Both the position numbers and the translations under genes were made by a program. From the NCBI GenBank assembly GCA_003133225.1, contig PKWL01000112.1, forward strand, positions 1-64,000: DNA of 64,000 nucleotides. Reading direction: 5' to 3'. This document shows positions 3,017 through 56,951 of the stretch, piece by piece. Each line of letters begins with the position of its first letter. Within the stretch, counting starts at the first letter, position 1. Source of the DNA: Janthinobacterium sp. Lineage in GTDB: Bacteria; Pseudomonadota; Gammaproteobacteria; Burkholderiales; Burkholderiaceae_D. The notes beneath the pieces were generated by a model. It saw only the letters and a list, made by a program, of their open reading frames with translations. It did not search any database and was not told where the DNA came from.

Positions 3017-3086
3017 GGCGTGAGCGTCATTTCCGCTGCCGAGAGCGAAGTTTGAACGGGCCGTCCGTTTAAAATACAAACGCGAA

Positions 3087-3127
3087 CACCCGTTGCGGCC
3101 GCTCGAGACGAACGGGCGCAACGGGTG
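3087..3127 (-). terminator. inverted repeat between convergent genes, possible terminator
   Basis: An 11-base perfect inverted repeat (3087-3097 and 3117-3127) with a 19-base loop lies between the flavoenzyme and the convergent regulator gene. Read on the minus strand, the stem is followed by a moderately T-rich stretch (GTTTGTATTTT), so it could end the regulator transcript. The U-tract is poor, so an operator or other hairpin function is possible. Confidence 0.4.
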
Positions 3128-47846: not shown

Positions 47847-48620
47847 CTATTTCCGCCGAGCAGGCATTGCGGCCTTTTTCTGCGGCGCGGGCGCTTCGTA
47901 CTGCGACACGTCCGGTTCCGTCAGCAGCCGGGCCATCGCTTCTTCCTTGCGGGCGAAGCAGGCTTCCAGGTTGTCGTTCGGCTGCGGATCGCCAAAGCGC
48001 AGCGAGGCGTAGGTCACGGAATCATCAAAACTGATTTCCGTGATGACCGAGACGGGCGGCAACTGGAAGCTGCGCACGACCGAGGTCACGTAGGCGTCGA
48101 ACGATTTCAACGCGGTCGGGGAGACCTTCAAAATCCACAGCGGGGTGTCCGCCGTGGCGCCGGGGGGCAGGACGGCCAGGACGCGGCCGTTCTTGCAGGC
48201 TTTGCCCTTGCCGTCGGAACCGAACTGGTTCATCGGACAGGCAGCGCAGCCGGCACTCTGCTTGACGGGGCTGTTGTCACTGGCGACGAGCGCGGTTGGA
48301 TTGCTGCCGATGGCGAAACAGGCTGGTGGGGAGATGTTGTCCTTATCGTAAGGGCCGTCATAGAACTGGTTCATCGACACGAAGTCAACAATGACCAGAT
48401 TGATCGGGCCGTTCGATTTGGTGCCGTCGGGGAACTCGAACTTCTTGTCCTGCGTGATGCGGATCGCATCGCCGCCGGGAGCACCGACGCGCGAGGCCAT
48501 ATCGGCGACTTCCTTGGCGAGCTGGGCGCGGATGTCGACGACCTGACCGCCGACGGCTTTCTTGACGGCAAGGGCCGTGCCGGTGGTCTTCGCGGGTGCT
48601 GCTGGTTTTTTCGTTGCCAT
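47847..48620 (-). CDS. conserved phage protein, possible ssDNA-binding
   Basis: The 257-residue protein has a basic Ala/Lys-rich N-terminus, a central region with CFAIGSNP and a cysteine cluster (CAACP, then KGKACKN), and a basic C-terminal tail. Such proteins occur near phage polymerase and helicase genes. A role as single-stranded DNA-binding protein is a guess from context. The four clustered cysteines could hold zinc. Confidence 0.65.
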   Translation of the reverse strand: MATKKPAAPAKTTGTALAVKKAVGGQVVDIRAQLAKEVADMASRVGAPGGDAIRITQDKKFEFPDGTKSNGPINLVIVDFVSMNQFYDGPYDKDNISPPACFAIGSNPTALVASDNSPVKQSAGCAACPMNQFGSDGKGKACKNGRVLAVLPPGATADTPLWILKVSPTALKSFDAYVTSVVRSFQLPPVSVITEISFDDSVTYASLRFGDPQPNDNLEACFARKEEAMARLLTEPDVSQYEAPAPQKKAAMPARRK

Positions 48621-48669
48621 AATTTCTTTCTTGGATTTTGCGGATTGAGTGGATTTCGCGGATTGAGAA

Positions 48670-49284
48670 CTACGCCTTTGCAGCCAGGCTGCGCAGGTTG
48701 ATCTTTCGCTTGGGAACTACGACATGAGCCCATGACTGGTTCGTCGCAATGCGGCTCATCTGGGTGTTACTGATACTAAATTCACGGGCTAGCTGGGTCT
48801 GGCTGCAAGAACCCAGCCTCCGTTTTATTTCTACTACTTGCTGCTGGGTTAATTTGGCGGTCTTGGTGATCTCTCCGTGGGAATGGCGCTTCTTCGAGAT
48901 CATGTCGTCGGTGTTATCCTGGGGAGTACCCAGGAATAGATGGCTCAGTTCGATGCAACGCCTGTTGTCGCACTCATGCAGCACCCATATACCCAGCGGG
49001 ATAGGGCCATTTGCGGCCTCCCAAACCAGCCGATGCACTATTTTTGTCTGATGGTTAAAAGTGGATTTACCGTAGCCGCCCTTGTTTAAGAGCCCAGTCC
49101 ATTCGAGACACCCGTTAGGTGCGCGTACGGCATACTTATCGATACGTGACTGCAACGATGGGATGACGCCCTTACTAAAGTGGCCCTTCCGATATTTCCG
49201 ATAGGTCCCAGCGACAAGCCCATTGGCCCTGTCGTTATATTTAATAAGGGAAGTGGCCGCTCCACAGCCGCATGCACAGATCAT
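48670..49284 (-). CDS. HNH homing endonuclease 1 with copied target C-terminus
   Basis: The 204-residue protein has an N-terminal cysteine cluster (CACGCG), an HNH nuclease core (IVHRLVWEA, VLHECDNRRC, HLFLGTPQDN) and a C-terminal helix-turn-helix (QTQLAREFSISNTQMSRI). Its last residues, RKINLRSLAAKA, repeat the C-terminus of the gene directly upstream (RKINLRSLAK). Its ATG overlaps that gene's TGA (ATGA), and its ribosome site GAGGAG lies inside that gene's final codons. It looks like a homing gene inserted into the 3' end of its neighbour. Confidence 0.88.
   Translation of the reverse strand: MICACGCGAATSLIKYNDRANGLVAGTYRKYRKGHFSKGVIPSLQSRIDKYAVRAPNGCLEWTGLLNKGGYGKSTFNHQTKIVHRLVWEAANGPIPLGIWVLHECDNRRCIELSHLFLGTPQDNTDDMISKKRHSHGEITKTAKLTQQQVVEIKRRLGSCSQTQLAREFSISNTQMSRIATNQSWAHVVVPKRKINLRSLAAKA
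48682..48708 (-). repeat. copied C-terminal coding segment, HNH gene 1
   Basis: This segment encodes nine residues, RKINLRSLA, identical in protein to those at 49287-49313 in the upstream gene. Seven of nine codons differ between the copies, all synonymously, with 8 base changes in 27. The copy here is GC-rich like the rest of the phage and is probably the original gene end. The copy in the upstream gene uses ATA, TTG, AGG and AGT. Confidence 0.85.
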
Positions 49285-49694
49285 TTAGCCAAACTCCTCA
49301 AATTTATTTTTCGACGTACAAACGGGGTGAGGCCCGGCAGAACTCCCTTTTGCTCGAAGATTTCTCGGGCGGCTACTTCTGATACACGGCGCTGGAACAA
49401 GTGGAAATACTTGGTCTTGGCGACGTACTTCGCAAACGCATCGAAGTCGGTGATGTTGAAACTGGTGGCCGAGCTGATCGACACGGAAGCCGACTTGCCC
49501 TTGCCAGTCTCCGATTCCTCTGCGTCCAGTCTTTCAAAGACGATAGACTCGGCGGCCGCAAGTTTCACCTCGATCTCCTTGACCTCGGCTTCCTTCGCCC
49601 GCTTCTGTTCCCGCAACTCCCATAGGGTGTCGATGGCTTTGCCGAGGGTGACGGCCTTGAGTGCGAGGACTTTTGTTACTGCTGCTGTTGCCAT
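49281..49694 (-). CDS. conserved phage protein, target of HNH gene 1
   Basis: The 137-residue protein has an N-terminal coiled coil (about residues 20-55, LWELREQKRAKEAEVKEIEV) and a C-terminal mixed domain (DFDAFAKYVAKTKYFHLFQRR). Function unknown. Its last ten codons, which encode RKINLRSLAK, look replaced: they use rare, AT-richer codons, and the presumed original end is now on the downstream HNH gene. Confidence 0.7.
   Translation of the reverse strand: MATAAVTKVLALKAVTLGKAIDTLWELREQKRAKEAEVKEIEVKLAAAESIVFERLDAEESETGKGKSASVSISSATSFNITDFDAFAKYVAKTKYFHLFQRRVSEVAAREIFEQKGVLPGLTPFVRRKINLRSLAK
49294..49299 (-). promoter_or_regulatory. ribosome binding site of HNH gene 1 inside recoded codons
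   Basis: GAGGAG spans the Leu-Arg-Ser codons TTG-AGG-AGT of the upstream gene and lies nine bases before the HNH ATG at 49284. In the other copy the same residues are encoded CTG-CGC-AGC, which has no such site. The recoding therefore created it. Confidence 0.75.
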
Positions 49695-56457: not shown

Positions 56458-56951
56458 TGCTGTCCTTGTGGAGCGGTAGGGTGATAGATGCACCGGGCCG
56501 CGCTATATGCGGCGGCAGCTTGATCGATGTTCTCGAATGTGCCGAGGTTTAGATTTTTGTAGCCGACCGTAATTCGGGCGATCCAACTATTCCCATTGGG
56601 GGTTCGTGACACGCCAACATATCCAGACGTATTCGTGCACCGTTTTGGCCCGTTATGCATGTTTTGCATGTGGGTCAACGGCACCAAGTTCTTTAGTCTG
56701 TTGTTTGCCCGCTTCAGGTCGCGGTGATCAACCTCGTCTTCGGGCCAAGCCCCATACACCCAGAACCAGATAACTCGGTGCAGCCGATATTTCTTGCCGT
56801 CGATCCAGACTTGCAGATAACCGTTACCGTCGTCGCTGCCGACCACGGCGCCTTTCTTTGCCCTGGAGCCCACAGTGATACGCCGCGTTACAATCCCAGT
56901 CTCCGGGTCGTAGTCGAATAGCTCCTTCAGTCTTTGCTGCGTTAGACTCAT
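56454..56951 (-). CDS. HNH endonuclease 3 with AP2-type domain
   Basis: The 165-residue protein has an HNH_3-type core (YRLHRVIWFWVYG, EVDHRDLKRANNRLKNL, TNTSGYVGV) followed by an AP2-like DNA-binding fold (SWIARITVGYKNLNLGTF). It is typical of free-standing phage homing endonucleases. Unlike the other two HNH genes, its C-terminus shows no copy of the upstream gene end. Its stop overlaps the Cas4-like start by ATGA. Confidence 0.9.
   Translation of the reverse strand: MSLTQQRLKELFDYDPETGIVTRRITVGSRAKKGAVVGSDDGNGYLQVWIDGKKYRLHRVIWFWVYGAWPEDEVDHRDLKRANNRLKNLVPLTHMQNMHNGPKRCTNTSGYVGVSRTPNGNSWIARITVGYKNLNLGTFENIDQAAAAYSAARCIYHPTAPQGQQ

Follow-up and report, generated by a model that had tools for sequence, protein, structure and literature searches.

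A free-standing HNH homing endonuclease gene has probably entered the 3' end of its target gene along with a short replacement of that end. Both genes lie in a 64,000-nucleotide stretch of DNA (hereafter, the window), which is part of a 144,408-base contig (C21) and whose genes have relatives in phages, viral contigs, and a Herminiimonas genome. As shown by sequence comparison, the target is uninterrupted in its relatives, its native end, now displaced, forms the tail of the HNH open reading frame (ORF), and the C-terminus of the target protein is kept intact by the replacement. The replacement is spelled in codons that are unusual for the phage, its GC content is below that of the displaced end, and the ribosome site of the HNH gene lies inside it.

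Organization of the target gene and the HNH gene

The target gene (49281-49694, minus strand) encodes a 137-residue protein of PHROG 13900, annotated "minor head protein," which matches the Pfam family DUF7307 only below the cut-off of that profile. The gene as it stands is a hybrid whose 3' end (49281-49313, minus strand) is a replacement with a GC content of 0.30, a GC3 of 3/10 and phage-rare codons. This end encodes the C-terminus RKINLRSLAK, i.e., an ending in VRRKINLRSLAK before the stop codon. The C-terminal end is conserved throughout the target family, and its being kept here fits the proposal in the earlier note that the replacement restores the host protein. Residues 122-134 are modeled as a β-strand in a predicted structure whose pTM of only 0.47 makes this a hint only.

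The stop codon of the target is overlapped, as ATGA, by the ATG of the HNH gene (48670-49284, minus strand), which encodes 204 residues. The product passes the Pfam HNH_3 cut-off (PF13392; 49.2 bits vs. a curated 24.8), with a profile match for the catalytic domain at 48913-49041 (minus strand), and belongs to PHROG 59 (E-value of 2.6e-28). The HxCD...H...N core is present, H103, C105, D106, H115, N124, and R133 being invariant across 37 sequences, and a predicted model (mean pLDDT of 85) places C-terminal helices between residues 147 and 180. A PDB sequence search with the HNH protein returned nothing at an E-value of 0.01. Two further HNH_3 genes are found on the same contig, at 56658-56789 of the window (minus strand) and at 80451-80579 of C21 (plus strand); both (L166 and L168) were included in the survey described below, and neither is among the 14 shared-end rows listed there.

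Beyond the WxHV with which its family usually ends, the HNH protein has a 16-residue tail (48670-48720 with the stop codon, minus strand). Family alignments end at residue 179-191 in 36 of the 40 matches listed (of 1,911 records), and at 199-201 in four. Among 89 HNH proteins with a terminal WxH[VILM], 58 finish no more than one residue past the motif, and eight, including that of the window, have at least 10 extra residues. The few HNH alignments running to residue 204 were considered as candidates for a shared tail and rejected; the two that represent single ORFs end in WRHVLLE and WKHVN. Across the 230 HNH ORFs from all loci collected, the KRKINLRSLAAKA tail has three carriers, all copies of the window's own gene, and the next-best ORF scores 23 vs. 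74. Independently of the target relatives, the HNH family thus marks the tail as foreign to it, since the listed alignments all end before residue 204, most WxH[VILM] proteins end at the motif, and no other HNH ORF in the loci collected has it. The earlier note had set against its own reading any HNH homologue elsewhere that ends in this way with no such target nearby, and none occurs among the 230 ORFs.

Comparison with relatives identifies most of this tail as the displaced native 3' end of the target (48670-48711, minus strand), KRKINLRSLAAKA and the stop codon being fused in frame to the HNH gene. The inserted stretch, which comprises the replacement end and the HNH gene minus its displaced tail, is best estimated at ~605 bp (48712-49316, minus strand), with boundaries uncertain by ~10 to 25 bp (junction scores: 140 for the best, 132 to 128 for the next-best). 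After the HNH stop codon comes a spacer (48621-48669, minus strand), followed by a 257-residue gene (47847-48620, minus strand; PHROG 27714, unknown) that lies directly after the target in HNH-less relatives.

Target relatives were gathered by protein, by alignment, and by neighboring gene. The loci collected hold 34 target-family ORFs, of which 14 are distinct by their last 70 residues: that of the window and 13 others, KPP25 and L046 being nearly identical and L007 remote. In all 13, no HNH gene follows the target within 900 nt on its strand (the sequence of L043 covers only 72 nt there), and by the same test a homologue of the 257-residue gene directly follows the target in eight of them, to which reading adds L017. 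The nearest relative, an HNH-less Herminiimonas prophage (L001), is 86% identical over residues 11-136 and ends in KRRINLRSLAVKA. The spacer after its uninterrupted target resembles the one that follows the HNH stop codon in the window (local score of 29, shuffle p of 0.0005). When the target through codon 126 is joined to the final 13 HNH codons, the score against L001 is 140, vs. 112 for the target's own end. This ending, the related spacer, and the better fit of the joined gene together show that the target's native end was displaced to become the HNH tail and that its present end is the replacement, in line with the insertion near the 3' end that the earlier note had envisaged. That note had also looked to an uninterrupted homologue as a check. 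Such a gene exists in L001 with the same protein pattern, but the exact RKINLRSLAAKA codons were not found in an uninterrupted gene among the target relatives compared.

Over the nine shared residues RKINLRSLA, seven codons and eight of the 27 bases differ between the two copies, all synonymously: the target reads CGA AAA ATA AAT TTG AGG AGT TTG GCT, and the HNH tail CGA AAG ATC AAC CTG CGC AGC CTG GCT. Past these residues the ends diverge, the target closing with K and its stop codon and the HNH tail with AKA and its own. The two ORFs and their codons bear out the description in the earlier note of two overlapping ORFs that share an end with synonymous differences only.

The composition of the replacement sets it apart, since its GC content of 0.30 compares with 0.56 in the target body (GC3 of 0.69) and 0.59 in the displaced end. 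Under phage codon usage, estimated from the 3,223 codons of ten ORFs on the minus strand in this region (target included), its spelling falls within the least likely 0.01% of all RKINLRSLA spellings (P = 0.0001), and the log10 likelihood is -8.0, vs. -4.1 for the displaced tail. The codon divergence of the two copies is unremarkable by itself, a random spelling sharing at most two of nine codons with the tail at a P of 0.11. Within the replacement, nine nucleotides ahead of the HNH ATG, is a GAGGAG Shine-Dalgarno site (49294-49299, minus strand). Its pairing with the anti-Shine-Dalgarno sequence amounts to -8.8 kcal/mol, vs. -1.5 for the displaced native codons and -2.7 for the codons of L001, which agrees with the earlier suggestion that the new end supplies the translation signal of the HNH gene. 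A Shine-Dalgarno-like string is expected in 3.9% of RKINLRSLA spellings.

Recurrence among HNH genes

We surveyed the ends of HNH genes against those of their upstream neighbors at 295 loci with 221 HNH ORFs, 207 of them distinct. An upstream ORF was available for 193 HNH ORFs, giving 374 pairs, which were compared with a null of 37,171 mismatched pairs (maximum score of 41). The set excluded duplicates, loci of the target family, and loci retrieved as relatives of one particular target, along with upstream ORFs matching an HNH profile. End-to-end peptide scores reached 50 in L236, 49 in L241, 43 in the window, and 38 (p of 2.7e-5) in L121. L060 and L075 were added by a DNA flank test (200 HNH genes) and a six-frame test (195 HNH genes), and L078 by the six-frame test. 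Convincing gene-end replacements thus number 6 among the 207 distinct HNH genes when the window is included, or 5 among 206 when it is not, with L241 and L172 as further, weaker cases. The GC content of the replacement end is below that of the displaced end in six of the seven cases measured (the window, L121, L236, L172, L241, and L078), the two being equal in L075. The mirror test, in which the N-terminus of the HNH protein was compared with that of the next gene's product, gave a best score of 27, for a null 99.9% level of 31 (256 pairs).

In L121, the upstream gene ends in WRLLFLESRERRKRYGNRK, in AT-rich codons that enclose the HNH ATG. The HNH gene itself closes with PRRKRYGKR, in different codons; the ATG of the next gene lies inside this displaced end, in the same frame position. 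An HNH-less relative (L128) ends in WRLLFLEARERRKRYGLRK, with the ATG of the next gene at the identical position. Since the joined empty site of L121 scores 32 against this relative, below the 44 of its own end, the evidence in this case is the overlap and position of the genes. In L236, the target ends in NKRLSNQELEKLTS and the HNH gene in PKRLPNAELEKLTS; both have a stop-start overlap, TCATGA, which at the HNH end leads onto the next ORF. A distant relative of the target, an S-CAM4 protein annotated without an HNH gene behind it (L302), ends in PKRLTNAQLQLLTS. In L060, a diverged end of ~67 nt is found before the HNH start and again from the HNH stop codon, and the second, displaced copy reads on, with no stop codon at the matching place. 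The HNH gene is antisense to the target in L075 and L078, where one end is kept by the target and the second copy lies beyond the HNH gene. Amino acid differences between the two copies also occur in L060, L078, and L236.

The weaker case L172, in which the target is NinB, scores 26 (p of 0.008), and a relative without that HNH gene (L181) ends in RFRANPNETRFAA. In L121, L236, and L172 alike, the HNH start is preceded by a pairing of -4.3 to -6.9 kcal/mol, and the displaced end overlaps the start of the next gene; because of this overlap, the displaced end may be kept. The ends in L241 share CG(D/E)TLNxFY and are not recoded, the HNH frame looks broken, and there is a third copy downstream; its relative L301 is identical across all 6,582 bases. 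At ~2760-3582 of L241, CGxTxNxFY closes three successive ORFs around the broken-looking HNH gene, possibly a repeated end replacement. Searching a phage collection by tblastn with the L121 and L241 targets gave no matches. In Caldibacillus phage CBP1 (L030), a gene and the HNH gene that follows it share the ending GGTTACTGATG (2469-2479 and 3077-3087); with a p of 0.024 in the DNA flank test it was kept as weak, and may be a short end replacement.

Several high-scoring candidates were rejected. L138 (peptide score of 82) consists of two neighboring, paralogous HNH proteins with similar ends, presumably of the AP2 label, and had slipped past the exclusion of HNH-like upstream ORFs; it also stood out above the null in the flank tests. 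In L071 (p of 0.004) the paired ORF is doubtful by eye, and L206, L109, and L085, although above the six-frame null (59-62 vs. a maximum of 57), are Arg/Pro-rich frames by eye. The DNA null was also exceeded by L102, where the right copy lies inside the HNH ORF, and by L215, where no replaced gene end is visible. In the latter, the HNH gene lies between two nearly identical 24-nt repeats, at 810-833 upstream of it and at ~1454-1476, at the start of the next long open frame. Elsewhere in the collection, the DNA polymerase ORF of a relative (L016:1-2925; IMGVR_UViG_3300045971_000247) has what look, by eye, like two intein-like insertions (starts CVAGDTLVLTNHG and CLGAGTQVLTDNG; ends in HNC). Over the later of them, an ORF in another frame looks HNH-like by eye. 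In L002:2277-2921 (IMGVR_UViG_3300045972_000131), which is without the window's HNH gene, a different HNH ORF overlaps the DNA polymerase region.

Origin of the replacement end

Chance, or a functional tail shared by two proteins that both end in a basic motif, has next to no probability as an explanation of the repeated end. The motif is indeed basic and short, and the window is inconspicuous in both flank tests: it is absent from the top 12 of the DNA test across 200 HNH genes, the repeat being short, and its six-frame score of 43 is not significant among 195 HNH genes (p of 0.054). However, its end-to-end peptide score exceeds the maximum of 37,171 mismatched pairs (43 vs. 41), the motif is the conserved end of the target family and is absent from the other HNH proteins collected, and the HNH-less relatives contradict a coincidence. 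A local duplication of the native end, as in a target-site duplication, whose upstream copy then drifted synonymously under selection on the protein, is improbable. It would account for a second copy in the same order and fits the codons of L001, which over INLRSLA encode the same protein pattern and lie four bases from each copy, siding with neither; nor was a donor of the replacement end found among the relatives compared. Drift of this kind sits poorly with the composition of the upstream copy, which is unlike that of the gene body (GC of 0.30 vs. 0.56) and has a 1-in-10,000 spelling, and with L060, L078, and L236, where the amino acid differences between copies resemble those between homologues of different phages.

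A further possibility concerns what maintains the spelling, which could be kept solely for the ribosome site and the stop-start overlap of the HNH gene, cleavage escape having no part in it. This is unlikely. The gain in pairing (-8.8 vs. -1.5 kcal/mol) and the pairing ahead of the HNH start in L121, L172, and L236 speak for it, but only the L-R-S codons form the site, yet the codons for K, I, N, and the second L differ too. Moreover, in the antisense cases L075 and L078, the replacement end is on the other strand and unable to serve the HNH gene in this way, so that replacement in general cannot be explained by the supply of a ribosome site.

The main reading is entry of the HNH gene together with a replacement end. 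The nuclease would cut or nick the recipient gene near its end, and repair would copy the homologous end of a donor phage plus the HNH gene, homology guiding the left side and a short join to the remainder of the native end closing the right. The resulting allele would encode a whole protein in DNA no longer matching the nuclease target, and nuclease and rescued target would spread together, much like a natural home-and-rescue drive. Since the replacement differs in DNA and hardly in protein, the carrier's copy would no longer be cut, i.e., the new spelling would confer immunity to cleavage. Instead of having been recoded for the purpose, the replacement may stem from a foreign homologue, because the codons of L001 are equidistant from both copies and the L010 group ends in RSLSK in GC-rich codons, resembling the RSLAK of the replacement in protein only. 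The codons of L001 and L010 neither give nor exclude a donor, and the exact pre-insertion sequence did not turn up among the relatives compared.

Relation to known systems and significance

MobA and the bypass segment of T4 gene 60 form a mobile cassette, an endonuclease with an adjacent sequence thought to protect the target. That segment differs from the window in being inserted and bypassed, rather than a replaced gene end. The T4 seg and mob genes resemble the window element in that they are free-standing HNH or GIY-YIG genes beside their targets, several overlapping the upstream ORF; in contrast, the excerpts consulted describe no carried replacement end, and the MobA and MobE insertions split genes (PMC2988022). 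Likewise, excerpts of a study of lactococcal HNH genes mention no such replacement ends (PMC12724721).

The closest parallels are fungal mitochondrial mobile ORFs that make gene hybrids, which the portions consulted report for atp6, atp9, cox2, and nad3 of Glomus and atp6 of Allomyces (PMC3630166). As in the window, an endonuclease ORF lies near the 3' end, the gene has a replacement C-terminus, and the native C-terminus remains behind the ORF; for the two ends of the atp6 hybrid, an identity of 63.5% is given at the DNA level and of 91% at the protein level (PMC3630166). A second fungal paper mentions that the C-termini of atp6 and cob are duplicated next to endonuclease ORFs (PMC6279837). 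The window has the marks of a gene hybrid, a replacement C-terminus joined in frame and a native one still behind the ORF, and that of a homing endonuclease, an HNH gene present here and absent at the same site in relatives. However, the fungal ORFs, as portrayed in those portions, are of the LAGLIDADG or GIY-YIG type, mitochondrial, and carry inserted ends of ~50 to 240 nt (PMC3630166), whereas the phage cases involve HNH genes with ends of ~33 to 70 nt, the native end is often fused to the nuclease, and, in the window, the ribosome site lies inside the replacement.

According to the sections consulted, the first 11 residues of the insertion in the ShiLan methylase resemble the first 11 of the host gene after the site, the DNA less so, a likeness that its authors weighed as an intron-like sign and not as a replaced stretch; unlike the window, ShiLan has a hidden HNH gene in mid-gene position with in-frame read-through (PMC11855218). 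The engineered drive HomeR, in the parts consulted, likewise carries a recoded C-terminal stretch of 22 or 27 residues of the invaded gene, whose function is kept, but it is synthetic, Cas9-based, and made for Drosophila (PMC7968924); for the phage element it offers a working analogy. Replacement gene ends carried by phage endonucleases are not reported in the open-licence literature searched, which is not proof of absence.

The window element is real and recurrent, a variant of the free-standing homing endonuclease. On balance, we lean toward the view that phage HNH genes include a recurrent, unnamed natural home-and-rescue class, which would enter the 3' end of a gene in either orientation, bring a cleavage-resistant and protein-preserving end, leave the native end behind, and seed hybrid genes. 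If so, the 11-residue likeness in ShiLan would be a mid-gene form.

A selfish gene can thus enter a compact phage operon without breaking it, repaying the end that it damages with a copy of its own, and that copy may also shield it from its own nuclease and provide its translation signal. The same process would account for certain hybrid genes in phages and for unusual C-terminal tails on HNH proteins. Pairs of native and replacement ends offer ready-made test pairs for the cut sites of free-standing HNH endonucleases, and the element may be, by analogy, the natural counterpart of engineered home-and-rescue gene drives.
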